A stretch of 33,631 nt of DNA, from positions 1 to 33,631 of IMG/VR virus record IMGVR_UViG_3300027734_000197; one strand, written 5' to 3'. How positions within the stretch are numbered: the first letter of the stretch is position 1; every line of letters begins with the position of its first letter. This DNA comes from a virus. The notes below the pieces were generated by a model. It had not been told where the DNA came from, did not search any database, and was given only the letters and a program-made list of their open reading frames with translations. This document shows, piece after piece, positions 582 through 24,566 of this stretch. Both the position numbers and the translations under genes were made by a program.

Positions 582-1967
582 TCAGAATGTAATTGAACCA
601 GAAGAAGTCCACGTGTAATAACGATAGCCGCTACTTACTGTAACTGTAGGTGACCCAGTTGTAGACGCGGCGACAGGAAAAGTGCTAGCGTATCTAATAA
701 TCACAATACCTGAACCGCCAGCGCCACCAGTATTAGTATTACCATAACCACCAGCGCCACCACCGCCAGCACCTCTGTTAGTAGTTCCAGCAGTGCCCGC
801 ATTGTTTCCTGTGCCGCCTGTGCCGCCGCCACCCGAACCACCGCATGATTGTGTGCCACCTAGTGAATATGTACCACCACCACCACCGCCTGCGTAAAAG
901 GTGCCAATTCCTAGCCAATTTATACCGTCGCCGCCGTTTCCACCTCTGGAACTACCGCCAGTGTTACCTACTCCAGTTGCACCACCACCGCCGCCGCCTG
1001 AATTGCATGAAGCATTACCGCCTCGATTTCCTTGCCCTGATGTTCCGCATCCATAACCTGCACAGTTATGACCACCGCCACCACCAGAGCCGCCAGTACC
1101 GCCTCCATTGCCTTTTCTACCACCATAGCCACCGCCAGTAGAGGTGATAGAACTGAACACTGAATTTGAGCCGGGGTTGCCATTTGTACCAGTACTTCCA
1201 GTACCACCTGCGCCAACTGTGACGGTATATGAAACACCTGTTGAAACAGCAAGTGTTGATGTTCTATATCCACCCGCGCCACCGCCTCCGCCACCATCGT
1301 AACCTCCTGAGCCGCCACCCGCAACAACCATATATTCAACAGATGTAATAGCAGGCGCAGATGGCGTTACGCTGTTACTTGCCGCACTAGCCGCGCCTGT
1401 ACCAATTGCATTTGTAGCTGTAACCGTGAACGTATAACCTGTACCGTTACTTAAACCAGAAACAGTAATAGGAGAGCTTGCTCCAGTACCTGTAATGCTA
1501 CTGGGCGAACTTGTAGCCGTGTAACCTGTAATAGCCGACCCGCCATCGCTTGCTGGTGCAGTAAAGGTGATAGAGGCAGTTGCATTGCCAGCGGTAGCTG
1601 TACCAATCGTAGGCGCCCCGGGCACCGTGGCTGGGCTTACACTATTGCTTGCGGCACTTGCCGCACTTGTTCCTAATGGGTTTGTTGCTGTAACAGTGAA
1701 GGTATAAGAAGTTCCTGAACTTAAGCCTGTAACTGTAAGCGGTGAAGAACTGCCAGTTGCAGTGAAACCTCCGGGGCTAGAAGTCGCGGTATACGTTACT
1801 GGTGTTGAATAATTTGAACTACCCGCCGTAAACGACACAGAAATAGAACTTGACGACGCAGAAGTTGCGGTGCCAATTGTCGGAGTCGCAGGCTTGGTAG
1901 GCCAAAACCCCGAGCCTATGGCTTGCATTTGTTGTCTTGAAGTCCAAATTCCACTAAAAGTAGGCAT
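582..1967 (-). CDS. FN3/polyglycine-rich phage adhesin (461 aa)
   Basis: Layout: an N-terminal docking-like peptide (residues 1-25, GIWTSRQQMQAIGSGFWP); two FN3-like modules (about 27-113 and 115-205); a long Gly-rich domain (about 210-425) with GGGGGG runs ending GGAGGSGIVIIRYA; and a short C-terminal cap ending in TVTVSSGYRYYTWTSSGS. The Gly-rich domain starts VEYMVVAGGGSGG, typical of the glycine-rich adhesin domains in which polyglycine II-like helices are capped by short specificity loops (known from the gp38-type adhesins of T-even-like phages). The likely job is binding a host-surface receptor from the tail tip. The cap is nearly the same as in the neighbour at 1974-3113. Start is supported by an AGGTGG about 10 nt upstream. 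Confidence 0.78.
   Translation of the reverse strand: MPTFSGIWTSRQQMQAIGSGFWPTKPATPTIGTATSASSSSISVSFTAGSSNYSTPVTYTATSSPGGFTATGSSSPLTVTGLSSGTSYTFTVTATNPLGTSAASAASNSVSPATVPGAPTIGTATAGNATASITFTAPASDGGSAITGYTATSSPSSITGTGASSPITVSGLSNGTGYTFTVTATNAIGTGAASAASNSVTPSAPAITSVEYMVVAGGGSGGYDGGGGGGAGGYRTSTLAVSTGVSYTVTVGAGGTGSTGTNGNPGSNSVFSSITSTGGGYGGRKGNGGGTGGSGGGGGHNCAGYGCGTSGQGNRGGNASCNSGGGGGGATGVGNTGGSSRGGNGGDGINWLGIGTFYAGGGGGGTYSLGGTQSCGGSGGGGTGGTGNNAGTAGTTNRGAGGGGAGGYGNTNTGGAGGSGIVIIRYASTFPVAASTTGSPTVTVSSGYRYYTWTSSGSITF
1355..1620. repeat. FN3-module DNA repeat, copy 1
   Basis: Codes the second FN3 module of the 461-residue adhesin. It aligns over its length with 2790-3055 in the next adhesin gene (identity by eye about 70 percent) and with the partial copy at 1-103. 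Shared stretches include GCTGT(A/G)CCAAT.GTAGG and the GCATTTGTAGC run. Confidence 0.65.
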
Positions 1968-1973
1968 ATTTAT

Positions 1974-3113
1974 TTACCACCTGATTGAACCAGAAGAGTT
2001 ATATGTGTAATAACGATAACCGCCTGTTACAGTAACCGTAGGTGATCCAGTTGTAGATACGGCGGCATCATAAGTATCAGGGTACGCAACAATTACAATA
2101 CCTGAACCACCTGACGCACCAAAAGCGCATGGGTTATCGCCACCACCACCTCCGCCGCCGCCTCGGTTAGCAGTCCCAGCGGTTGGGGATATTGTGACGC
2201 ATCTACCACCTGCACCACCACCACCTGAGCCTCCAGCTCCGCCATTATTACATTGACCAGTACCGCTACCGCCACCGCCACCAGCGTAAGTCGTTCCGTT
2301 AATCCATGTGTATCCAGCACCACCTGCTCCGCCATTTGGATAAGAATTGATTCCGTTTTGACCTGCCGCGCCAGCACCACCGCCGCCAGCACCCATGTAA
2401 TAGGTTGTGCTTGCTGGAACAGAACCGCCTACGTTACCTTGACATGCTGTTGCAGTACCGCCTGATTGCGCCCCACCTGATGGCTCACCACGACTTGCAC
2501 CGCCGCCTGATCCTCCATTGCCACCTGCTAACGAAGTGCCTGTGTAACCAGCACCTCTACCTCCACCTACAGAAGTATTTCCAAATCCTGTAGAGGATGA
2601 GCCTTGCGTTGCGGAACCAGCGCCTATTGCTGAACCAGAACCGCCACCACCAATCGTAAATGAATACGTAGTTCCAGTCGTCACAGAAACACATGTTCTG
2701 ATTAAACCGCCAGCACCTCCACCCGCACCACGTTTAGAGCCACCACCACCGCCACCAGCCGCCATAAGGAAACTAACAGATGTTGGCGCGCCTGTAACCG
2801 TTACGCTATTGCTTGCGGCGCTAGATGGGCTATTCCCATATGCATTTGTAGCAACAACTGCAAATGTATAACTTGCACCATTTGTTAGACCACTTACGGT
2901 AATAGGGGAAGATGCCCCTGTACCAGTAAAGTTACTTGGCGTCGAGGTCACCGTATAACTACTAATGGCTCCACCACCCACATTGGTTGGCGCTGTAAAT
3001 GCCACAGACGCAGACAAGTTTCCAGCAGTAGCTGTGCCAATAGTAGGGGCGTCAGGAATTAGTAACGGAAAATATGATGCCGTTAAAAAACCAGCTTGAT
3101 AGCGCATCGACAT
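1974..3113 (-). CDS. FN3/polyglycine-rich phage adhesin (379 aa)
   Basis: A paralogue of the gene at 582-1967 with one FN3-like module instead of two. An N-terminal segment (MSMRYQAGFLTASYFPLLIP) leads into the FN3 module (about 21-110). A Gly-rich domain (about 113-345, with GGGGGGGG runs, starting VSFLMAAGGGGGG and ending GGSGIVIVAYPD) follows, then the C-terminal cap TVTVTGGYRYYTYNSSGS. Start: an AGGAG lies 6 nt before the first ATG; a second in-frame ATG is 6 nt downstream. The stop is 6 nt from the next gene. The Gly-rich domains of the two paralogues differ in loops but share the framework, as expected for receptor-specificity variation (inference). Confidence 0.78.
   Translation of the reverse strand: MSMRYQAGFLTASYFPLLIPDAPTIGTATAGNLSASVAFTAPTNVGGGAISSYTVTSTPSNFTGTGASSPITVSGLTNGASYTFAVVATNAYGNSPSSAASNSVTVTGAPTSVSFLMAAGGGGGGSKRGAGGGAGGLIRTCVSVTTGTTYSFTIGGGGSGSAIGAGSATQGSSSTGFGNTSVGGGRGAGYTGTSLAGGNGGSGGGASRGEPSGGAQSGGTATACQGNVGGSVPASTTYYMGAGGGGAGAAGQNGINSYPNGGAGGAGYTWINGTTYAGGGGGSGTGQCNNGGAGGSGGGGAGGRCVTISPTAGTANRGGGGGGGGDNPCAFGASGGSGIVIVAYPDTYDAAVSTTGSPTVTVTGGYRYYTYNSSGSIRW
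2790..3055. repeat. FN3-module DNA repeat, copy 2
   Basis: Codes the FN3 module of the 379-residue adhesin. The start of the edge-cut gene (1-103) shares its ACCGTATAACTACTAATG (2951 onward versus 1 onward), showing a recent common origin or exchange. Confidence 0.7.
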
Positions 3114-9189: not shown

Positions 9190-9648
9190 TTAGCAAGAAC
9201 CGCCGTAAGCTTTTTTCATCTTACCACCAGTTTTGTACTTTTGAATTACGCCACCTGTAGCGTACTTCTCAATTACTCCACCAGTTTTCAGACCTTTATG
9301 CGCTTTAGACGCAGACTTATTAGCATGAGACTTAAGATCGCCTTTAATGCCTTTAATAGCTGACATCTCAGCTTTGTGCATCTTAGGAGACTCAACCTCA
9401 CCGCCCTTTTTACGCGCCATAGGCATTGGGCCGGTTTCCATTTTTGTAGGAATACCACCCATACCGATACCGCGACTAGGCATGGCGGGGGCCATACCAC
9501 GACGAGCTGCCATAGGGGCGCCACGTGCAGAAGCTTTTTCAGGGATAATTCCACCCATAGCTTTCTTTACTGCGCCGCCTTTTTTAAGCTTCAGTTCAAC
9601 TGAAGGCTCTGTAGTCATCATCTTAGGCATTGGTTTAAACTGTCCCAT
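9190..9648 (-). CDS. Basic low-complexity late protein with GGxV/GGxK repeats
   Basis: A 152-residue Lys/Met/Gly-rich protein. It carries at least eight short motifs of the form K/A-x-GG-[AIVEK]: KKGGAVKKAMGG near 23-33, KKGGEVE near 80, and LKTGGVIEKYATGGVIQKYKTGGKMKKAYGGSC at the C-terminus. The segment VIQKYK(T/S)GG is shared with the protein at 13,785-14,072, and related YAEGGPV/YQAGGSV motifs occur near the C-terminus of the 1,953-residue protein. No enzymatic domain is visible. It is likely disordered and DNA- or capsid-associated (inference). The gene sits between two small structural genes downstream of the major capsid protein. Confidence 0.68.
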   Translation of the reverse strand: MGQFKPMPKMMTTEPSVELKLKKGGAVKKAMGGIIPEKASARGAPMAARRGMAPAMPSRGIGMGGIPTKMETGPMPMARKKGGEVESPKMHKAEMSAIKGIKGDLKSHANKSASKAHKGLKTGGVIEKYATGGVIQKYKTGGKMKKAYGGSC

Positions 9649-13784: not shown

Positions 13785-14072
13785 TTAGCGGCCACGACCT
13801 GCAGACTTCTTCACGGGGATCGCGATGGTTACTGCAAAGCCAGACATCTTCTTGGCGGCTCCGCCTTTTTTCATCGTCGCAATTTTGCCAGTAGGCTTAG
13901 GCAAGGGTGGAGGCGCTGAACCACGTGCTGGCAAATTAGCCACACGAGACTCAGGCATCACGCTGCCGCCTGACTTATACTTTTGAATCACGCTCTTGCC
14001 CTTGGCTGTAGCAACGGAATCACCCGCTCCCATTGCCAAGCGCTTGTGCATGTTAATTCCTTCATCAGCCAT
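13785..14072 (-). CDS. Basic GG-motif protein downstream of portal (95 aa)
   Basis: Starts MADEGINMHKRLAMGAGDSV; rich in Lys, Gly, Ala and Pro. It carries VIQKYKSGGSVMPESR (about 29-44) and KKGGAAKKMSGF, clearly related to the C-terminal motif of the protein at 9190-9648. The C-terminus (IAIPVKKSAGRGR) is basic. It overlaps the portal stop by 8 bp. No enzymatic features are visible. It is likely a disordered virion or assembly factor (inference). Confidence 0.68.
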   Translation of the reverse strand: MADEGINMHKRLAMGAGDSVATAKGKSVIQKYKSGGSVMPESRVANLPARGSAPPPLPKPTGKIATMKKGGAAKKMSGFAVTIAIPVKKSAGRGR

Positions 14073-16605
14073 TTTGAGCTCCTAGGGTTTGTTGAATTAG
14101 ATTCTGCGCTTCTAAAGCAGTTTTAACCTGCTCGTGTTGTAAGCTAGCGGCATCGCGCGTAAGGTCCGCTGACTTAATTCTTTCTTGCGTGAGATTGTTC
14201 TCAGTATTCTTAGCCATATCGGCTTGAAGTTTCTGAGTTGCAAGTTGCATATCCTGCTGAAGCTTAGCAGCTTCCAGTTGCATCTCGGCTTGATCCTTGG
14301 TAGCGCGGCGCTGTGTCTCGGCCATGCTGGTTTGGACAAATGCTTGCGTTGCGGGGTCTGCAGGCGGTGAGCCTGACAATTGCTTAATGGCAGCAATGGC
14401 GTTCTGGATGATGGGTGGCAATGCCTTAAAGGTCTCACCAGTATCTTTATGCACGTGCTGCGCAACGGCTGCAAGCAACTGATCCGCGCCTTGCGGCAAT
14501 GTCTGCTCTTTCAAGACATTGAATGGTCTATTCAACGCTGCTGAGCTATATGAATCCACTTGGTTAAGGTACCACAGGGTCAAGTGCTGCTTTAAATGCT
14601 CCAAACACAATGGGATGAAAGCCGGAGCCATGATGGGATTAGCACCATACATTGGGTCTTGCAAATAATCCAAGTGAACCTGAATGTGGGACAAGTGATC
14701 TTGCCGCGGGAATGCACCGGCGTGGCGACCAAAAGTCATGGCCACGTTCTCCAAAGCCGGATTCATTTCCTTCACCTCGTTAGGATCAGGCAAAACCTCG
14801 TTGACGTCAGGCAATCTGATTTGCTTAAGGATTCGCTTCTCAACAGCAAGTCTGTTATACAAGTCAGGGTTGGCCTGAGCTCGTGCAGCCAGAGTCTGGA
14901 TCTGCGCGTACCGCTGTGTCTCTGCAAAGATATGAGGGTCAGACACTGGAACAATGTCTGAGTTCTTGGCAAAGTCTTCTTTGGTAACTTCCAAGTCCTC
15001 AACCATCTCGCCTTTAACCTGCTCATCCAAGTACCAGTTATTCAACCTTGCAATAACTTTCAATACTCGGCGCTGAGAGTCATGCAATCGTGCATGCACA
15101 GCGCTAAACACCGCGGCGCCTTGCTCAATCAAAGCTTGCGTAGTACCTACTGGCGCGTTGCTTGTAATGTCTGCAATCTTTTCTTCGCTTGTAGTAACCA
15201 CGCCTTTTGCAGCTGTGGTTAACCAACCTAGCAATTCAAGCAGCACAGGAGAGGGCTGGTTAAATGGCAATGGCATGGCAATTTTACGAATATCGTCAAT
15301 GCCCGGTGCGCCTTCAATCTCACTAACCTGCGTAGGCTCAATGGTCAGCGACTGGCCTGACATCTTTGCGCCTTTAAGCTTAAGCATTGTAGGCGCGTTG
15401 GTAATGTGCGCTGAGTCAAGCAGTGCGCGCAACGAGCCAGTAAGCGCTGCAGATAGGCCACCAATAAGATGCGGTAAGCCAATTGCGTAAGCACCACGCC
15501 ATGGGATGAACTTAAACTCGATCAACCAGTCCAGCTTGGTCATGGTCTCGTCGCCATCCGCCCAGTTACGGTATAAGCCAACAACCTCAGTTGTTAGGTC
15601 ATCAATCATCAAGATGTACGGCGCACGCTTTGAATCTGAGTAGTTGTCATCATCCAAAGAAAGCCAAGTATAGATGTGGTATACACGGCGCACACCGTCT
15701 ACGTTATCCGCTTGGCTCTTACGGCCTTCAATCTTATTGTTTGCTTTCTCGGACTTGGACTCCTCAGGCTCCATAGAGGCACGAACAATATCAATGTCAA
15801 CGTAGAGGCCACTTTCAACGCGCTCTTCAAAAGTCTCTTGTGTAATGTCTTGGACTTCAGTGACGCGGCCTGCAGTGTAAAAGTTAACAGCTGCAAAAGG
15901 TAAGTACACATTATCAATAGGCACAAACTCAGCGCAAGGCCTGCGTTTCTGGTCGTCGTACCAGATCTTCATGTATTGGCTACCACCAAGCGGCAACTGA
16001 GTTAACAGCTGCTCTTCCTCATCGCGGTATTCTTCAATCTGCTCAGTGAGCTGCCAGTTCATATAGTCGCGCTTACGCTCTGCGCGTTCTACCTTCTCAT
16101 CTGTAGTCTCACCAATGATCTTTGTTTTAACTGGCCCATCGGCGGGGAATAGCTCCTTGATGGCTCGAGCTGAGAAGTCAACGCATGCTTCAGCCATGAG
16201 TGGGTGGACAACCTTGCTGGCTCCGGTGAATTGCGCTCCGCCCGGCGCATCGTGGCCTAAGCCCGTACGACGCAGACCTTCTTCATATTGCTTATCACGC
16301 TCCTCGCGAGCTTCTTTGTCTTTCTCAATCAGCTCAACGTACTTGTGAGCCAATTTGCTGAGGTCGTAGCTGTCAAGCACGTCAGCCAAGTTCTCGTAAA
16401 AGTCAGGCTCACCTTCTGGCCCTTTGGAATCATCTTCCATTCTTACGATGGCCGAGCCGTCGGGCAATTCTTCTACTTCCGGAGTCTCATCTTCCATCTC
16501 ATCGAACATGGTGAGAGCAGAAGGCCCAGCGGCTTCGGCTTCATCGTCTGACATGGGCTCGATGAAACGATCGAAGTCCGGTGGAATTGGCATCTGTGTG
16601 GCCAT
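14065..16605 (-). CDS. Portal protein (P22-type)
   Basis: 846 residues, larger than most portals and in the range of P22 gp1-like ones. Features seen in order: an acidic disordered N-terminus (1-65); helical EERDKQYEEGLRRTGLGHDAPGGAQFTGASKVVHPLMAEACVDFSARAIKELFP (about 100-155); the wing segment around KIWYDDQKRRPCAEFVPIDNVYLP; TWLSLDDDNYSD; and the PPF-like core with SHITNAPTMLKLKG-type helices (LRALLDSAHITNAPTML). The C-terminus is a long Gln/Ala-rich coiled coil (about 755-846), the predicted barrel or internal helix. It forms the dodecameric DNA channel and packaging-motor dock. It lies 3 nt from the upstream giant gene. Confidence 0.84.
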   Translation of the reverse strand: MATQMPIPPDFDRFIEPMSDDEAEAAGPSALTMFDEMEDETPEVEELPDGSAIVRMEDDSKGPEGEPDFYENLADVLDSYDLSKLAHKYVELIEKDKEAREERDKQYEEGLRRTGLGHDAPGGAQFTGASKVVHPLMAEACVDFSARAIKELFPADGPVKTKIIGETTDEKVERAERKRDYMNWQLTEQIEEYRDEEEQLLTQLPLGGSQYMKIWYDDQKRRPCAEFVPIDNVYLPFAAVNFYTAGRVTEVQDITQETFEERVESGLYVDIDIVRASMEPEESKSEKANNKIEGRKSQADNVDGVRRVYHIYTWLSLDDDNYSDSKRAPYILMIDDLTTEVVGLYRNWADGDETMTKLDWLIEFKFIPWRGAYAIGLPHLIGGLSAALTGSLRALLDSAHITNAPTMLKLKGAKMSGQSLTIEPTQVSEIEGAPGIDDIRKIAMPLPFNQPSPVLLELLGWLTTAAKGVVTTSEEKIADITSNAPVGTTQALIEQGAAVFSAVHARLHDSQRRVLKVIARLNNWYLDEQVKGEMVEDLEVTKEDFAKNSDIVPVSDPHIFAETQRYAQIQTLAARAQANPDLYNRLAVEKRILKQIRLPDVNEVLPDPNEVKEMNPALENVAMTFGRHAGAFPRQDHLSHIQVHLDYLQDPMYGANPIMAPAFIPLCLEHLKQHLTLWYLNQVDSYSSAALNRPFNVLKEQTLPQGADQLLAAVAQHVHKDTGETFKALPPIIQNAIAAIKQLSGSPPADPATQAFVQTSMAETQRRATKDQAEMQLEAAKLQQDMQLATQKLQADMAKNTENNLTQERIKSADLTRDAASLQHEQVKTALEAQNLIQQTLGAQNG

Positions 16606-16608
16606 AAG

Positions 16609-19600
16609 TTATTTTCTCCGCATCGTGAGGGCGTATCGCATTTGATCGGTAGTCGGATTTTGTTGGACTATACCACCATTCGCCTTTTTAATGAAGGCTT
16701 GACCCTGAGTTTGTGTACGAGATGCACGCTCGGCTTCCGCCTGTACGAGATCTTCTAGCTCTGCTTGAGACTTGGCACGTTGCCCCAGTTCTGCTCCAAA
16801 ACGGTTGTTGTGGGTATCCATACCATAATCTGCTGGCATTTGCCCTCCAAACATGGATTTGACAGCTTGAAGTGGGGAAGTCGTGAACTCGTGAGCTTTG
16901 CCTAAGAACTCAGCTGTTTTAGGTCCGTACTTACGTGAAAGCGTGCCAGCAGCCAGCATATGCCTTGCAGCGTCCCGCTGGTCATCCTGCCCTTTTTGGC
17001 CGGGGTACATCTCATAGGCCACAGTCTCCGAGTAAGTCGGGACACTGAATAGCCAAGGCGTTGGCACGTCAGGCTTTTTGACAGACCCACCGGCTTGGTA
17101 GCCACGAACTGGACCGCCTTCAGCGTAGTCGTCCATGCCTTGGTATCTTGCAACAAGCGCTTCAAGCTTAACTTTAAGAGCCTGCATAAGCTCAGGTGAC
17201 CATTCATATCCTGTTGTGGCCATGCCTAAGATGTCTTCAAATGCCTGTTCGCCACTGCGATTCAACGCACGTAAATGCTGTCGAATTAAACGAACAGCAG
17301 CACGCGGATTAGGCGTGTCTGTATAGTAGCCGTCCTCAAGCAAGTTTACAATCTCTTCAGCTGTTGCACTATACTCAGCGTTTCTAGCAAGAGCTTCAGG
17401 TAAACCACGTGTCTCAACAAGTTGTGCTAACGCCTCGCGGTCGGCCTGTGTTGGATTATGCGTGCCAATCTCATCGTCGCCTCGAATAAAGTCAGCTAAT
17501 TCAGCCGGCGTCCAAGTCTCAGTAATCTCACCCTCATCAAGCAAGCGTTGATAATCTCTAACATAGTTATTGTATAGAACATCTAATTGCGCTGGGCTTA
17601 TTTGCGTAACGTTGCCTTGATTTGTTATAGGTCTATCAGGGCGTATTTGCGTAATAGGCGGCGCAATCAAATCAACCATGTTAGCCAAGTCTCTAAGCGC
17701 TTGCGCAGTTGTAGGATTAGTCTCTATCTCTGCGGCCTCGTTAAGTCGAGTTGCAAACGCCGCAGGCTGTTCTCTAAGAGCTTCATCTACGTCAGGAAAA
17801 CCTATGCCATCAGCAATAGTTTCACTAATGTGGCCAACATCACGTGCAGTAGGCGCAGGCGCGTTTTCGCGTAGATAATTAACAAAGAGGTTAAAGTCTC
17901 CAACTTCAAAGCGTCGCATTGCAGGGGCAGGCGGTACGCCATTCGGATTCAGTGCTCTAAGTTGCGCGTCAGCCTGCATACCTTGCGCTGCTTCCAATGT
18001 AGGCAATAATCTTTCTAAGGCGACAGCAGTAAGATGTGCTGCGCGGCCAACCTCGTAGTCAGGCAAGCCTCGCAAAACTTCATGGTCGAATTCTGTGTTA
18101 TACAAAGCCTGCACTGTGTCACGTAAGTCAGCAATATTTAAGCCTGCCTCGTTTGCTAATTGCGCAGCAAAGTCAGTAGGGTTAAACTCAATGTAGTTGG
18201 CGCGTTGGTAAAGTTGGTTAGATAAAGAACGGCGATCAGCTTCTGCCAATGGCGACCAATGCTGATTACCCATACCTGACATTGCAAACGCTGTGGCGCG
18301 CAAGTCTTCAGGGTTTAACTCCGGGTCATTAAGCATGTCTTCAGCTTGAATCATACGGTCATTGCGCATGTTATCAAGATCAGCTGCACGTGGGACAGGC
18401 GGCTGGGTATGTAGCTCAATTCGATTTGCAAGACCTTCTAGTTCCCTAATAACAGCTTCATGCTCAAGTTCAGGATTCACAGCTCGCAAAGCATCTGCAT
18501 AGCCTGAGGGGTCTAGTCGTGGGTTATGGTTTTCAGCAACACGGTGCGCAATGGTGTCAAATCGATCAGCAATAACAGGCCCAAAATTTATAGCAATGGA
18601 ATTAGATGCGTTGTCTACTGCGCCAACCCAATCAAACTGCGGCGCTACTTGCGCAACTGGTGCTTGTACTGCTTGAGCAGGTGGCGCAGTTGCCTCAACT
18701 TGGTCAGCTAATCTGCGTAACTCACGCCCAATAGTGGCATCCGCAACATCCCTACTTGCTGCGCGCAATGCAGTGGCGTAGCCTACAGGGTCTACCCGTG
18801 GACTGTGTTGCGCAGCTACGCCGCGTGCAATTGACGCGTAGCGACGAGCAATGGTCTCACTTAAGATGCGCAGCTCATCAGCAGCTGTATCCACATAATT
18901 TTCAAAGTCAAAAGCCTGAGGTTGACGCGCAGGTGGTTGTGGCGCAACTTCAGGTTCCCAGTCCCGCATGTATGCGCTTTCCATTTCATTAGCTAAGTTG
19001 CTTAATGCAATATCGACAGTGCCTAATGGCGACGCATGCGCAGCCACTCTTAATGCAGTAATAAACGGATCTGTGCTAATTTGTGGGTCAATACCTTGCT
19101 GTTCAATAATCGATCTAACAGCAGATCTCATCTCATTAGCTGCTTCTGTGCCAAAGTCATTTTCAAGTTGCATAAACGCGTCATGCGTCATACGCAAATA
19201 TTGTGGTCGACCATTTTGACCTACAGGCGCAGCAGGCGCTAAACGATTAGCATCTCTCCAACGAGCAAACTCCTCAACCATGACTTGGTGAATACCTAAA
19301 CCTGCAGGAGAGTCATCAACATCAGCTTCCCAACGTTCTGAAAAGTCTTGCAACCAGTCTACTTGCTCAGGCGATAAGCGATCACGGTATTGCTCAAGCA
19401 ACTCTTCGGTATCCATGTTAGGCATTGGGTCACCTTGCATTGCAACAGCACGAGGTTGCGCACCCTCAGCGGCTATACGCGCGTTTACGTACTCTGCTTG
19501 CAAGCCTAAGTTTTGCATTAAGTCCAGAATACCATCGGCAATGATATTGGCAACTATACGTGGGCTATTAGAGTATTCATTTTCAAGATCATACAAGCGC

Positions 19601-22470
19601 TGCGTGGCACGATCCAACGCGCGTACAGGCCCTTCAGCTTGTAAATATCTATTAAAGTGATCTAAAGTATCTCTAAAGAATACTTCTGCTTGAACAAACT
19701 GATTGCTCTCACCTGCCTCATCAAACGCAAGTCTTTGAGAATCAAGTATGTTGTCAATTGATGACGCCACAGCGCCTGCGGTAGATACTTCTAAGCTTTC
19801 ACTAGGTCGCTGCGACAAGATTGCAGGTGCCAATTCTTGCGGCGCATTAGCTTTAAGCTCTTCAACATAATTGCGAATGTCGCTGCTTGTGACAAACCGC
19901 GGCAGGCCTGACAGGTCATACTTTTTAAACGTAGTCACAGGTGTATTAACAACAGCGGCCAGCGCACTGTTCGACATACGCTTGCTATCGTAGATACCTA
20001 GGTTCTCATTCATCTTATTGCTAACACCACGAATTCTATCTTCACGGCTGTTCAGATAAGACTTAATGCCTTCAACATACTCAGTCTTAACAGCACCGTT
20101 TTTGCGACCTGACGCAAAGTTAATGTCATACTTACCAGATGAGCTAGGGTTAAAGTCAAAAATGGCAACAGGCTCACCTGTAACTACATCTCTAAAGCTA
20201 ACCATTTGTGAGCCATTTGCAACAGCATTAATGTATGTGCCTCTTGGGCTGGTTGCATCCGGGTTACGCTGACCTGTGACAATATCGTAAATTGGAATGT
20301 ACTGACGATCGCCTGTGCCGGGATGCCAAGGGTTTGGCTTATTTTTAACATTACCGCCTTCGCCAATGCAAACGTCCAAAGCCAAGGTGTCTTCACTTAC
20401 CAACTGCGCAACCTGCGTAGGCGTAAAGCGATCACTAATCTCCAATGCGCCAACGTTGCCAAAGACTTTGTCATTTGGAATATACAACGCAGCGCTTCGT
20501 GCAAACTGATTGTCAGCATCAATCTTAAATTGCTTCTCTTTAGCTTGCGCAAGCTTTTCTTTAGCAATACGACCTTCGGCAGTATCGCGTATATATTTTT
20601 CAACAGTCATCTTTGGAACTTTGTCCAACTTTATCTTACGCGACATTACGTCGTTGTAAAAGCTCTTTGCAAGGTCGCCAAACCCGAGTTCACGCAATCG
20701 ACTTGGTGATGCAGTGTACACACGCTCTTCATCAGGTGTTCGCATTAACGCAGGATAAAACTGCCGCTCACCGTATTCAAGGTCTTCTTTCAGGCCCTTG
20801 GCTGTATCTGCGCTAATTGCAGTGTCAGTTGCATACTCATACGCAGCGCCTAAACGCAAATTGTCAACCACCTTTTGTTGCTTTCTATACGCGGCGTTTG
20901 CTTTATCAGACTCACGTGATGCCTGTGCAAAAGGCTCATACCTTCCAAGATTCATACCTTCAGGCACAACACCTGTATTAGGGTCAACTGCGCCGTAACC
21001 TAGCTGCTGCGCAATAGCTTCTTGTTCGCGTTTACGAGTTGCAGCGTCAGCAGCTTGTTGTACCAATTCTAATAGCTGTTGGTCTGCCGCAATCACTGCT
21101 TCGTCTGTAGGTGTCTTGGCAGGCATACCTGCTGCGATGCGCTTATCCTCTATACCGTGACTGAAGCCTGTTGACAAGTCAAATACATCTGAAGGCGGGA
21201 CAAACGTTAAGCCTTGGCTTGCCAGCTTGGCTGCAGGCTCATTAGGCGTGCCAACTTTTTCAATGATGTAATTGGTAAACTGCGAGTTAAGCCAGTTGGC
21301 AGCAGCCTCGTGCATTGCAGGCAACTCTTCTGCAGACGGCAAGTCAAGCTCCGCTTTGTATTGCATACCTTTAGGCGTATTTAAGAACTCGTCGTACATC
21401 TCTAATGAGTGCGCAGCAGATGCTTCCCTATCTCCGAATCTGGCTTTATACGCCGCCAATGCCGCGCCTTCAGACGGCGCATCAGGGTACATCTCATTAG
21501 CCTTTGTCTTAAGGAAAGACTCGAATGCCCTGCGTGCAGATGCAGATTCAGGTTTACCTAAAATGTTGTGCTGTATCTCGTCCAATGCTTGTACAGGCGT
21601 CATAGTTGCATCACTAATGACACTACGAACAAGATCACGTGCAGGTGTGTAAGTTGCAGCATCTTGCTTTGCAGTTGCAGGCAACGTAGCAGATGTAACC
21701 CTTGACCCTTCAGGTCGCATGGCATACAGCTTAGGGTTTGTTGGCTGCATGGAAGCTGGGAGCCCAGGGATAGGTGGCAACCCTTGCATTTCCCTTTGCG
21801 CCATGATGTCGCCAATGCTATCAGCAACACCTTGGAGCTTGGCGCCGTACGTTGGCTGACCTGTGATTGGGTCTAACTTCTGCAGACCAGATTGCGCGTT
21901 GTAGAAGTCTGTGGGTATATCCTTGACTTGCCTGCCTACACGCGTGGCCTCAGCGCCCATAACCCGCAGATCATTAGGGGTAAATGCTGGGCGGCCAGTT
22001 TGTAGGTGCCCGAGGTACGCAGGCAGCTCGGCCATGTACGGCGCAATGGCGCCTGCAAATTCCTGCGCCATTGGTGTTTGCGGCGCGTTCTGTTGCATGA
22101 ACTGCGTGGCAACTTTCTCTGCGTATGCAGGCGCCTTGCCTGATGTGAACGTGCCAGCAGGTGATGTGGTTAAGCTTTCACCTACGCCTTTGACAGCAGC
22201 CACAGCAGGCACGGTGATGATACCTGCAGCTTCACGCATGGACTTGGCCATCATCAGCGGATTGAACTTAGTTGCCAACTCGGTGAAGTTACCAGCAGCT
22301 GAGCCTAGTGGGTCAGGCGGTGTTTGTGATGGTGGGACTGGTCGTCCGTAGCCGGGAATTTGTGAAGACAGAGGCTGGTTCTTTTTGACCAGCTCCAGCT
22401 TCATTTGATCTAAGTCAGGGGCGCCATCATCGCCTATGTAGTTACCTTGCGGATCGTAGATTGCTGCCAT
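16609..22470 (-). CDS. Giant multi-domain virion-like protein (1,953 aa), PcfJ-like and HxHNN domains
   Basis: Between TerL and portal, unlike the usual TerL-portal adjacency. Seen: low-complexity N-terminus (1-110); helical region; a segment near 690-815 (LDVCIGEGG...MVSFRDVVTGEPVAIFDF...INFASGRKNGAVKTEYVEGIKSYL) resembling the PcfJ-like domain of plasmid and phage proteins; helical repeat units near 1190-1258 and 1281-1352 sharing IA.R...IA..VA..H.PR.DP.GYA.ALRA, with weaker copies to about 1600; GG motifs (1783-1797); and a C-terminal domain (about 1815-1915) with D1833, H1837, H1860-E1861 and D1885-x-HNN, similar to DUF6973-type putative metal-binding domains. No clear signal or membrane segment. 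Likely packaged or ejected with DNA (inference from size and position). An AAGGTG precedes the ATG. Confidence 0.72.
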   Translation of the reverse strand: MAAIYDPQGNYIGDDGAPDLDQMKLELVKKNQPLSSQIPGYGRPVPPSQTPPDPLGSAAGNFTELATKFNPLMMAKSMREAAGIITVPAVAAVKGVGESLTTSPAGTFTSGKAPAYAEKVATQFMQQNAPQTPMAQEFAGAIAPYMAELPAYLGHLQTGRPAFTPNDLRVMGAEATRVGRQVKDIPTDFYNAQSGLQKLDPITGQPTYGAKLQGVADSIGDIMAQREMQGLPPIPGLPASMQPTNPKLYAMRPEGSRVTSATLPATAKQDAATYTPARDLVRSVISDATMTPVQALDEIQHNILGKPESASARRAFESFLKTKANEMYPDAPSEGAALAAYKARFGDREASAAHSLEMYDEFLNTPKGMQYKAELDLPSAEELPAMHEAAANWLNSQFTNYIIEKVGTPNEPAAKLASQGLTFVPPSDVFDLSTGFSHGIEDKRIAAGMPAKTPTDEAVIAADQQLLELVQQAADAATRKREQEAIAQQLGYGAVDPNTGVVPEGMNLGRYEPFAQASRESDKANAAYRKQQKVVDNLRLGAAYEYATDTAISADTAKGLKEDLEYGERQFYPALMRTPDEERVYTASPSRLRELGFGDLAKSFYNDVMSRKIKLDKVPKMTVEKYIRDTAEGRIAKEKLAQAKEKQFKIDADNQFARSAALYIPNDKVFGNVGALEISDRFTPTQVAQLVSEDTLALDVCIGEGGNVKNKPNPWHPGTGDRQYIPIYDIVTGQRNPDATSPRGTYINAVANGSQMVSFRDVVTGEPVAIFDFNPSSSGKYDINFASGRKNGAVKTEYVEGIKSYLNSREDRIRGVSNKMNENLGIYDSKRMSNSALAAVVNTPVTTFKKYDLSGLPRFVTSSDIRNYVEELKANAPQELAPAILSQRPSESLEVSTAGAVASSIDNILDSQRLAFDEAGESNQFVQAEVFFRDTLDHFNRYLQAEGPVRALDRATQRLYDLENEYSNSPRIVANIIADGILDLMQNLGLQAEYVNARIAAEGAQPRAVAMQGDPMPNMDTEELLEQYRDRLSPEQVDWLQDFSERWEADVDDSPAGLGIHQVMVEEFARWRDANRLAPAAPVGQNGRPQYLRMTHDAFMQLENDFGTEAANEMRSAVRSIIEQQGIDPQISTDPFITALRVAAHASPLGTVDIALSNLANEMESAYMRDWEPEVAPQPPARQPQAFDFENYVDTAADELRILSETIARRYASIARGVAAQHSPRVDPVGYATALRAASRDVADATIGRELRRLADQVEATAPPAQAVQAPVAQVAPQFDWVGAVDNASNSIAINFGPVIADRFDTIAHRVAENHNPRLDPSGYADALRAVNPELEHEAVIRELEGLANRIELHTQPPVPRAADLDNMRNDRMIQAEDMLNDPELNPEDLRATAFAMSGMGNQHWSPLAEADRRSLSNQLYQRANYIEFNPTDFAAQLANEAGLNIADLRDTVQALYNTEFDHEVLRGLPDYEVGRAAHLTAVALERLLPTLEAAQGMQADAQLRALNPNGVPPAPAMRRFEVGDFNLFVNYLRENAPAPTARDVGHISETIADGIGFPDVDEALREQPAAFATRLNEAAEIETNPTTAQALRDLANMVDLIAPPITQIRPDRPITNQGNVTQISPAQLDVLYNNYVRDYQRLLDEGEITETWTPAELADFIRGDDEIGTHNPTQADREALAQLVETRGLPEALARNAEYSATAEEIVNLLEDGYYTDTPNPRAAVRLIRQHLRALNRSGEQAFEDILGMATTGYEWSPELMQALKVKLEALVARYQGMDDYAEGGPVRGYQAGGSVKKPDVPTPWLFSVPTYSETVAYEMYPGQKGQDDQRDAARHMLAAGTLSRKYGPKTAEFLGKAHEFTTSPLQAVKSMFGGQMPADYGMDTHNNRFGAELGQRAKSQAELEDLVQAEAERASRTQTQGQAFIKKANGGIVQQNPTTDQMRYALTMRRK

Positions 22471-22484
22471 GTGCGCACCTTAAG

Positions 22485-23912
22485 TTAGACGGCGTAGGGG
22501 TTTACCCGCTTAGGACGATCTTCTTCGTAGTCGTCATCCGGATTGTATACCGGGTCGATGGAAATTAACCCTAAGTCTCGCAAAAGCCTTAAAGCTTGAG
22601 ATGTGGAGTCTACCAAGTCATCGTGCCGGACTTCGGGGAAGGAGCATAGCTGGCTGATCAAAGGCTCTGCCCAATCACGAGCCATGCCCGCATTGACTGA
22701 GGACTCGGGAATGTAGACACGGCCCTTGGCAATGATGGGAGCCACGATGTTAAGGCGTGTAGTCTTGTCCGCGTTCCCGGGATTGTAGCTTCTCACAGGC
22801 AGACCTGCGCGTTGCAGATCTTGGATAAGCTGCGTGCCGGCTGACTTGTCCTCGATCAAGATCATGTCTACCTTTTTCCCGTGACCAAACTCATTCTCAT
22901 CACCGTAAATGGCGGTGGACTCCTCGATCACCTTAGGTCGCAGCTCAGGGTACTGCATGTACTCCTCCCAGCAATCAATGAGCATGACACTCATAGCCTT
23001 GTCGGGACTTGGCCTAAAGATACCCCACACAGTGCAGGCCGTCGGGTCGTTCTTGGTCTTGTCACTGGTCGCGCAGTCATAAGACTGAAGCACGTACTCA
23101 AATCTAGGCAGCGGCTTCTCATTGTCCCACAGCTTGAACCAATCACGCTTGATAATGCCCGCCTCTTCAGGGTCTAGAATCTCGGCGTAGATCTCTTGGC
23201 GTCCAAGCTTTGTGCCTTCGTACTGCAAGATCTGCGCTTGGAACGATGGGGCGAGGTTGTGGATGTTGTCGTACGTGCTGGCCTTGGTACATATCACATC
23301 CTCGCCGTCTCTGTTCACCAGATCCACGATCAATGGCTTGGGCTTAGGCGTTGTGGTGCATAGCATCAGGGGTTTCTGACCTAAGCGCATACCAAACTGG
23401 ATCATGTTCCAAGAGTCGTCAAGGTAATCCCATGCAGCAAGCTCGTCAAACCAGCCACCGTGGAACTGCGGACCTCGAAATCGTGATGGCTCAGACGCAG
23501 GGATGCCTTTGATCAGCGTGCCGTTGATGAGGACTATCTCATGTAGCGACCGTGTGTAGTGGTCGACCAACTGCTCGGGGATCACAGTCATCAGACCTGA
23601 GTCGCCTTCGAAGCAGACGTCGCGGACATCGGATGATGTGGGCGCAGAGACAAGCCATCTTGTCTTGGGGTGCGTCCATGCTTCCCACCACAGCCACTCG
23701 GCAGCTGCGCGAGTCTTGCCTGCGCCTCGTCCTGCGAGCAAGAGCCATATGCTCCACCAATTGCCGGGTGGCGGAACCTGATGATCATTGGCTATTGTTA
23801 GCCAGCTTTGTCGAGCCTTGTGCGCAGCTTTGCGCTCAGGTAGCATGAGGTTAAGATCAGGACCCTTGCGGATCCGATCTGCAAACTCACTTGCTCTTGC
23901 TTGGCTTAGCAT
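22485..23912 (-). CDS. terL: Terminase large subunit (TerL)
   Basis: 475 residues. ATPase: Walker A LAGRGAGKT (59-67), Walker B GGWFDE (152-157, catalytic E157), coupling motif CTTTPKP (185-191). RNase H-like nuclease: D279 (SYDCATSDK), E354/D355 (LIEDKSAGT) and D431/D432 with D435 (RHDDLVDSTSQAL). The protein packages concatemeric DNA into proheads through the portal, using the nuclease to cut. The C-terminus is charged. It overlaps TerS by 26 bp, so the two are coupled. The giant gene follows 14 nt downstream. Confidence 0.93.
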   Translation of the reverse strand: MLSQARASEFADRIRKGPDLNLMLPERKAAHKARQSWLTIANDHQVPPPGNWWSIWLLLAGRGAGKTRAAAEWLWWEAWTHPKTRWLVSAPTSSDVRDVCFEGDSGLMTVIPEQLVDHYTRSLHEIVLINGTLIKGIPASEPSRFRGPQFHGGWFDELAAWDYLDDSWNMIQFGMRLGQKPLMLCTTTPKPKPLIVDLVNRDGEDVICTKASTYDNIHNLAPSFQAQILQYEGTKLGRQEIYAEILDPEEAGIIKRDWFKLWDNEKPLPRFEYVLQSYDCATSDKTKNDPTACTVWGIFRPSPDKAMSVMLIDCWEEYMQYPELRPKVIEESTAIYGDENEFGHGKKVDMILIEDKSAGTQLIQDLQRAGLPVRSYNPGNADKTTRLNIVAPIIAKGRVYIPESSVNAGMARDWAEPLISQLCSFPEVRHDDLVDSTSQALRLLRDLGLISIDPVYNPDDDYEEDRPKRVNPYAV

Positions 23913-24357
23913 CGACTTGGCGCGTTGTTAGGAGATCATCCAACAAGTCTTGTGAGAAGTCATGCACCATGTCGACTTGGATGGGCCCGTCATTCTTACC
24001 TGTGACCTCGAGCTTGGAGTTCTCGCGGTATTGCTCGGGAAAGCGTGCTGCCATGCTTCGGCTCCACAACCCAGTGTTGAGTCTTGGCCCGCCGGGGTTC
24101 TCAATCATGTGATTCTGTGCGAGCTCTTCCCAATAACATAGCGCATCAAGTCGTGCTTCTTCCAATGCAGCCCGAAAATCGTCATGTGCGCCTTCCCAGT
24201 TTTGGAGATTGCGCCATCCGATGTTAAGCTTCGATGCGATTTGCCAACGCGATAAGCCCTCTTTGCCAAGGGCTACGATTTGATCGCAGTACGCTGGGTC
24301 GTACGTTGTAGGACGGCCCAAGAACTTACCGTTCTTAGATGGTGTCTTTGTAGTCAT
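23887..24357 (-). CDS. terS: Terminase small subunit-like DNA-binding protein
   Basis: 156 residues from MTTKTPSKNGKFLGRPTTYDPAY. This ATG is preferred to an upstream TTG that would add 21 residues and run into the GGTAACA repeats. A helix-turn-helix lies near residues 36-54 (LSRWQIASKLNIGWRNLQNW), followed by HDDFRAALEEARLDALCYWEELAQ and GGPRLNTGLWSRSMAARFPEQYRE, the layout of phage TerS-type proteins. The C-terminus (VDMVHDFSQDLLDDLLTTRQV) may contact TerL. No strong ribosome site is seen. It recognises packaging sites and activates TerL (family knowledge). Confidence 0.75.
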   Translation of the reverse strand: MTTKTPSKNGKFLGRPTTYDPAYCDQIVALGKEGLSRWQIASKLNIGWRNLQNWEGAHDDFRAALEEARLDALCYWEELAQNHMIENPGGPRLNTGLWSRSMAARFPEQYRENSKLEVTGKNDGPIQVDMVHDFSQDLLDDLLTTRQVDAKPSKSK

Positions 24358-24406
24358 GTGCGGATTGTAATCATAAAGTTGGAAGTGTGTACATTTTATT
24401 GCGGCA

Positions 24407-24566
24407 GGTAACGGTAACAAGGTAACATATGGTCCAGAAAACTATATAGCTATACACTATTACTATATATACTATACTTTATAAAATAATAGTTACCTAC
24501 TGTTACCTTGTTACTATTCAATCCAGATAAGGCTTTCAGAAGTAACAGTTTGGTAACAGGTAACAA
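24407..24566. promoter_or_regulatory. GGTAACA repeat array with AT-rich core (candidate origin or late control region)
   Basis: Between TerS and the primase-helicase, this stretch carries GGTAAC-type motifs at 24,407, 24,413, 24,421 (plus), 24,492, 24,501 (minus orientation, GTTACC), and 24,552 and 24,559 (plus). The central stretch (about 24,429-24,491) is almost all A/T with repeated TATAG/ACTAT steps. The layout (short repeats in both orientations beside an AT-rich melting zone) is like iteron origins and like operator clusters. It also lies just upstream of the late gene block, so leftward late promoters may be inside. Neither function can be shown from sequence alone. Confidence 0.62.
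24414..24514. repeat. Perfect 14-bp inverted repeat around AT-rich spacer
   Basis: The left arm GTAACAAGGTAACA (24,414-24,427) and right arm TGTTACCTTGTTAC (24,501-24,514) are exact reverse complements separated by 73 nt of mostly A/T. Each arm is two copies of the GTAACA unit. Confidence 0.9.

Follow-up and report, generated by a model that had tools for sequence, protein, structure and literature searches.

A 1,953-residue polyvalent-type protein between terminase and portal of an aquatic phage lineage, with a DUF6973 domain in an exchange slot framed by GG boxes

The window, the whole stretch of DNA analysed here, is a 33,631-base IMG/VR virus record. Its largest gene, already recognised as such in a sequence-only reading, encodes a polyvalent-type protein of 1,953 residues and occupies positions 16609..22470 of the minus strand (ATG start, stop codon included). 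The coordinates and size given by that reading were borne out; it had named no strand, and the minus strand can now be assigned. A plus-strand reading of 16609-22470 was ruled out, the frame being riddled with stops. Gene order on the minus strand is primase-like protein, TerS, TerL, the 1,953-residue gene, portal, small genes, a GroES-like gene and the capsid genes. TerS (23887-24420, minus; phrog_309) and TerL (22485..23912, minus; Terminase_6N/6C) lie upstream, the latter ending 14 nt from the start codon, and the portal gene (14065..16605, minus; phrog_1216, E 4e-23) has its ATG 3 nt beyond the end of the gene; the proposed location between terminase and portal is therefore correct. The stretch 582-3113 (minus) additionally encodes two tail-fibre-like proteins, both rich in glycine and bearing fibronectin-type-III-like repeats.

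Two scans of IMG/VR located 66 relatives of the protein, those complete at both ends ranging from 1,393 to 2,404 residues. TerL is directly upstream in 64 of the 66; the portal gene is visible downstream in 30, mostly 4 nt off, and about half of the contigs end within the gene. Since it is kept across these relatives, the TerL–gene–portal arrangement is not due to chance. No relative of the whole protein was found by tblastn in 50,697 deposited phage records, and none of its DUF6973 domain in isolate phage records. No relatives of the protein were found in GTDB bacterial genomes, which hence gave no host or prophage evidence. The lineage therefore looks non-lysogenic and uncultured; it is aquatic and known almost only from metagenomes. 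The nearest named phages by portal and TerL are MW202545 (an assembled Manatee Spring phage), Caulobacter phages RW, KcrB, RLK and GB2A, Roseobacter phages CRP-901 and CRP-902 and Pelagibacter phages HTVC023P and HTVC027P. Compared with three relatives (L008, L003 and L025), dN/dS is at most 0.39 in each region where it could be computed. The DUF6973 domain and the C-terminal tail have the lowest values (0-0.09), with normal synonymous change in two of the three comparisons (L003 and L025). The gene is real and under purifying selection.

Comparison of slot contents revealed that the interval between TerL and portal varies among related phages. No large gene is present there in Caulobacter phage RW or Roseobacter CRP-902, whose portals are homologous to that of the window (47% and 34% identity, respectively). 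The slot of MW202545 holds an unrelated 890-residue protein of GP88 type, that of HTVC027P two proteins (483 and 892 residues), that of psg01 also two, and that of DSL-LC04 a PcfJ-like protein (WJZ48068.1; PF14284, E 5e-9). In MW202675, ART-PolyVal/M15 and InPase proteins are placed after the portal. A second slot gene of 391-436 residues sits between TerL and the homologue of the 1,953-residue protein in L001, L009 and L046. As the slot is variable and sometimes has no large gene, the gene is accessory and of cargo type, outside the minimal head. As a separate observation, the product of the second slot gene in L001, L009 and L046 starts DEELARMRAQML and includes a Tat-like SRRDVLKRAG motif, to which the SKRKFIK motif of HTVC027P gp42 is similar. 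In L030 an ORF of 184 residues with an HNH-like HHIVPRSLGG motif, probably a homing-type endonuclease, is inserted between the homologue and the portal gene.

The N-terminal region, residues 1-384 (21319..22470, minus), is conserved in comparison with relatives and has no known domain. It is followed by an extended PcfJ-like module, residues 385-840 (19951..21318, minus), located by profile–profile matching and AlphaFold, with the motifs WxxxxxxNY, CIGxGG, SFRDxxTGxP and SGxxNG. The sequence-only reading had suggested a PcfJ-like domain at 690-815; the relationship holds, with limits that were drawn too narrowly. A Pfam search at E ≤ 10 gave no match of the protein to PF14284, the curated cut-off thus not being reached; the PF14284 HMM likewise matched nothing in the L058 and L064 records. 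Residues 372-872 align over the whole module with IMG/VR relatives of the DSL-LC04 PcfJ region, and hhalign of the family against relatives of the DSL-LC04 protein returned 98.9%, E 3.2e-17, over 283 columns. Because these relatives match by profile and the DSL-LC04 protein itself passes PF14284, the module is homologous to bona fide PcfJ proteins. The protein shares with WJZ48068.1 the same TerL–portal slot, some 450 homologous residues and the C-x-G, RDxxGxP and GxxN motifs; it differs in an insert of about 45 residues following C-x-G and in about 1,100 extra C-terminal residues.

The AlphaFold model of the PcfJ-like module has a mean pLDDT of 90 and a pTM of 0.70. A PDB fold search with it gave no match at E ≤ 0.001; GNAT acyltransferases make up most of the top 50, the best being weak at E 0.12, and the GNAT motif [QR]xxGx[GA] is degenerate in the module (SGRKNG). 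A PDB sequence search with the module gave nothing useful. We regard a GNAT-type, acyltransferase-like module as a lead from modelling, not a finding.

Residues 1090-1640 (17551..19203, minus) form a region of copy-variable, putatively helical repeats with units of about 75-90 residues, the repetition being seen in self-comparison of the sequence. The repeats previously placed at 1190-1600 are evident, units 1188-1262 and 1274-1350 being 41% identical (E 6e-15); weaker copies, similar to unit 1188-1262, occupy 1515-1605 (E 2e-4) and 1090-1175 (E 1e-3). Copy number varies among relatives through indels, and this region is among the fastest-evolving parts of the protein (dN/dS 0.22-0.39). The helical nature of the repeats was modelled by AlphaFold for the distal part alone.

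Towards the C-terminus, residues 1816-1911 (16738..17025, minus) form a toxin-like DUF6973 domain (PF22322, 29.9 bits against a curated cut-off of 27), the identity of the HxE/DxHNN domain noted earlier at 1815-1915. It bears the motifs DxxDAxRH (1830-1837), HE (1860-1861) and DxHNN (1885-1889). PF22322 is the sole family passed by the protein at curated Pfam cut-offs, and searches of Pfam, NCBIfam and PADLOC gave nothing convincing beyond it. An absence of similarity to PcfJ or DUF6973 families, named by the earlier reading as one half of the case against itself, was looked for and is not what was found (profile E 3e-17; PF22322 cut-off passed). The best PDB sequence match of the DUF6973 profile is 9uu0, the Bacteroides fragilis type VI secretion system (T6SS) effector BteO (E 0.001), with the RHxL, GxxHE and DxxNNxxG motifs in register; in the PDB fold search 9uu0 ranks third, as a weak match (E 1.7, prob 0.41). 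Unlike BteO, which is delivered by the T6SS, the domain described here is phage-encoded, would be delivered by the particle if at all, and is embedded between GG boxes (below). A literature search returned no paper on DUF6973 activity or on BteO. The top BFVD entry, annotated as a phage 'PcfJ-like protein', shares this domain (59% identity, E 2e-11); the PcfJ–DUF6973 combination is therefore already in sequence databases, unremarked.

The GG box is a short element with the consensus [YFMKH]xxGGx[VI]. Box 1 (YAEGGPV, residues 1782-1788, 17107..17127, minus) and box 2 (YQAGGSV, 1791-1797, 17080..17100, minus) precede the DUF6973 domain and are predicted to be disordered; box 3 (KANGGIV, 1929-1935, 16666..16686, minus) lies in the linker at the start of the tail. 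In the AlphaFold model two box-bearing stretches are disordered linkers (pLDDT <50) flanking a compact helical domain. The tail itself, TTDQMRYALTMRRK (residues 1940-1953, 16612..16653, minus), is a predicted helix, the last 12 residues being helical in the model, and is kept when the preceding domain is swapped. Among the 32 relatives with intact C-termini, the slot holds DUF6973 in 26, a JAMM-like domain in two (L011, L037) and something else or nothing in four. In L048 and L051 the flanking boxes are adjacent with no domain between, the second box being degenerate in L051. Of these relatives, all but L053 and L058 still have MRxxLMMRR, or a sequence very like it, as tail motif. GG boxes thus border a site at which the C-terminal domain is exchangeable, while the tail beyond it stays fixed. 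The JAMM-like domain was read by eye from an HTHP...PSDAD motif; Pfam and PDB searches with that of L011 gave no confirmation.

Bacterial polymorphic toxins likewise have an exchangeable C-terminal toxin-like module behind a conserved N-terminal part. The phage protein differs from them in its conserved tail beyond the exchanged module and in its setting within an operon of phage head genes. We also noted solo DUF6973 genes of about 145-172 residues (L128, L129, L130, L136, L138, L140 and L143), whose products close with a GG box and then KECxCGR, or a sequence near to it, as a tail that may bind metal. A further domain, as yet without a name and marked by a motif resembling E[EL][LI]QSD, recurs in L048, L051, L030, L084 and MW202675 (L072:19376-21919).

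Boxes are also found outside this family. The window encodes a 95-residue GG-box protein after the portal gene (YKSGGSV; 13785..14072, minus) and a 152-residue protein rich in boxes near the capsid gene (9190..9648, minus); MW202545 has a 449-residue counterpart of these small proteins with six boxes. DUF6973 modules were located at 53 loci outside the 1,953-residue family. With near-duplicates removed and with a box pattern chosen post hoc from the sequences viewed, embedded copies have a FAEGGEV-type box 27-48 residues ahead of DxxDAxRH in 18 of 19 cases, and N-terminal or solo copies have a box immediately past the domain in eight of nine. A fixed pattern, [YFMKH][AKQDENSRT]xGGx[VI], found 53 boxes among ORFs from the window and from 11 phage records, where shuffles led us to expect 8.3. 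These cluster in slot proteins and in small genes by portal and capsid; in phage records lacking a slot protein the head genes have few or no boxes, the GroES loop aside. Matches in GroES (KTKGGII) were excluded, as we take them to be its known mobile loop. The unchanged pattern gave 22 boxes in InPase proteins (1.6 expected), the domain being preceded in 16 of 22 by a box no more than 70 residues away (10-12 in most), and 33 in ART proteins (1.2 expected), seldom directly ahead of the ART domain. Together these are 55 boxes against 2.8 expected with the pattern fixed beforehand, in a check that is partly independent only, the set being relatives of one InPase and one ART protein of MW202675 that were among those from which the pattern was taken. 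Polyvalent proteins that are unrelated to each other thus have GG boxes where their domains meet. A literature search found no earlier description of them, and they appear to be an undescribed border tag. As cleavage sites of the adenain or double-glycine-leader type they were rejected, since residue preferences fit poorly and no protease was identified.

A second short element lies near the termini. The N-terminal motif DLDQMKLEL (residues 19-27, 22390..22416, minus; at 14-17 in several relatives) and the tail share the pattern xLxxM[RK]xxL, with T, I or V allowed for L, which is present near both ends of the 1,953-residue protein and of L046, L048, L049 and L064. In the MW202545 slot protein, which is unrelated, the pattern stands seven residues short of the C-terminus, and the second slot protein of relatives has it close to the N-terminus. 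Counts were 17 and 3 against 1.6 and 0.1 expected, for a pattern chosen after inspection and with homologous copies included. Because the motif is found at the ends of proteins that share little else, its placement would fit a targeting signal. In phage T4 a short capsid-targeting sequence loads the internal proteins and Alt into the head, a precedent for short head-loading peptides. Unlike the T4 sequence, the motif described here lies near both ends, and no sequence similarity between the two is claimed.

Taken together, the GG box and the terminal xLxxM[RK]xxL helix could, as a tentative proposal, amount to a code, so far unrecognised, for the loading and release of cargo in aquatic tailed phages. 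Such a code would mark head cargo and keep apart the effector cassettes (DUF6973, JAMM-like, ART, InPase, PcfJ) that can be interchanged within a polyvalent protein or between several; the small box-only proteins by the capsid gene would perhaps serve as adaptor or scaffold. Boxes and terminal motifs might instead be flexible linkers or recombination seams with no role at the protein level, as the position of the boxes in predicted-disordered stretches (pLDDT <50) and at domain-swap sites would suggest. A plain linker, however, needs neither a fixed aromatic or basic residue before GG nor V/I after it; the GG codons differ between the three boxes of the gene, which speaks against a seam; and small box-rich proteins exist that join no known domains. 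The tail is, moreover, kept as protein, since its dN/dS is 0-0.09 despite normal dS in two of three comparisons. We therefore consider the linker or seam explanation rather unlikely; it would in any case be compatible with a polyvalent protein.

Iyer et al. 2017 assign such large proteins, where portal-terminase phages encode them, to an injected, polyvalent class, with P1 DdrB, N4 vRNAP and T4 Alt as precedents for packaged members or analogues (PMC5512222). The 1,953-residue protein resembles this class in its very large size, multidomain build, late-gene context in a portal-terminase phage and modular domain swapping, and has distinct domains in one polypeptide, of which two or more are expected (PcfJ-like module, DUF6973 and repeat region). 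It differs from these proteins, which are predicted to be packaged and injected, in that Pfam detected no signature polyvalent domain in it (ART-PolyVal, InPase, ArdC-N, LPD, PBECR etc.); such a domain is typical of the class and not obligatory, and signature domains do occur in other GG-box proteins. The main text of PMC5512222 makes no mention of PcfJ, glycine or linker; the class thus seems to be extended here by the PcfJ–DUF6973 combination, by the GG boxes and by the twin terminal motif.

We consider it likely that the protein is a phage polyvalent protein with several effector modules, a late product that travels in the head and reaches the host together with the phage DNA. It would be expressed late together with the packaging and head genes, enter the procapsid, most plausibly near the portal, and leave along with the DNA, the PcfJ and DUF6973 modules then acting immediately in the new host. 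The terminal helix motifs and GG boxes may serve loading into the head or release from it, as signals for docking or processing, and the repeats may be a spacer or threading segment. DUF6973 may be the active effector, directed at the infected cell, at host defence or at rival phages; the PcfJ module may contribute a second activity, perhaps of acyltransferase type. These proposals for loading, ejection and activity draw on gene position, on the precedents of T4 Alt, N4 vRNAP and P1 DdrB and on the match to a T6SS effector.

The earlier interpretation is thus partly supported. Its broad idea of multi-effector cargo is strengthened by slot exchange, by the toxin homology of the last domain and by absence from phages with homologous TerL and portal. 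It did not notice that the C-terminal slot is exchangeable, nor the GG boxes or the twin terminal motif. Its case against a structural role by default, argued from size, is weak, given that tape-measure proteins and ejection proteins are large too. A structural protein of the virion core or ejection channel (internal core), with its long helical parts forming or lining the route by which DNA leaves, would account for the size, the helix-rich character, the repeats and the position beside the portal. Such a role is nevertheless improbable: RW and CRP-902 manage with homologous portals and a slot without the protein, so that the head can do without it; in MW202545 large genes of tail/ejection type, among them one for an SLT transglycosylase, form a cluster of their own; and some relatives have exchanged or lost the C-terminal domain. 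A protein that acts late inside the producing cell and never enters the particle, such as a toxin, an exclusion factor or an assembly factor, would suit the late expression there that the operon position implies, and carries an equally low probability, since the gene is grouped with TerL and portal and proteins of this class are generally read as injected, with P1 DdrB, N4 vRNAP and T4 Alt as packaged precedents (PMC5512222).

Polyvalent proteins are proposed weapons of early infection, injected with the genome, and how they are recognised for packaging and then released is the question at stake. A border tag that can be counted, together with a natural series in which one site carries varied cassettes or none, makes this question directly testable. 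The tag also provides a handle for finding as yet unknown anti-host domains in metagenomic phages, and a T6SS-type effector domain is now linked to a candidate phage-delivered effector.
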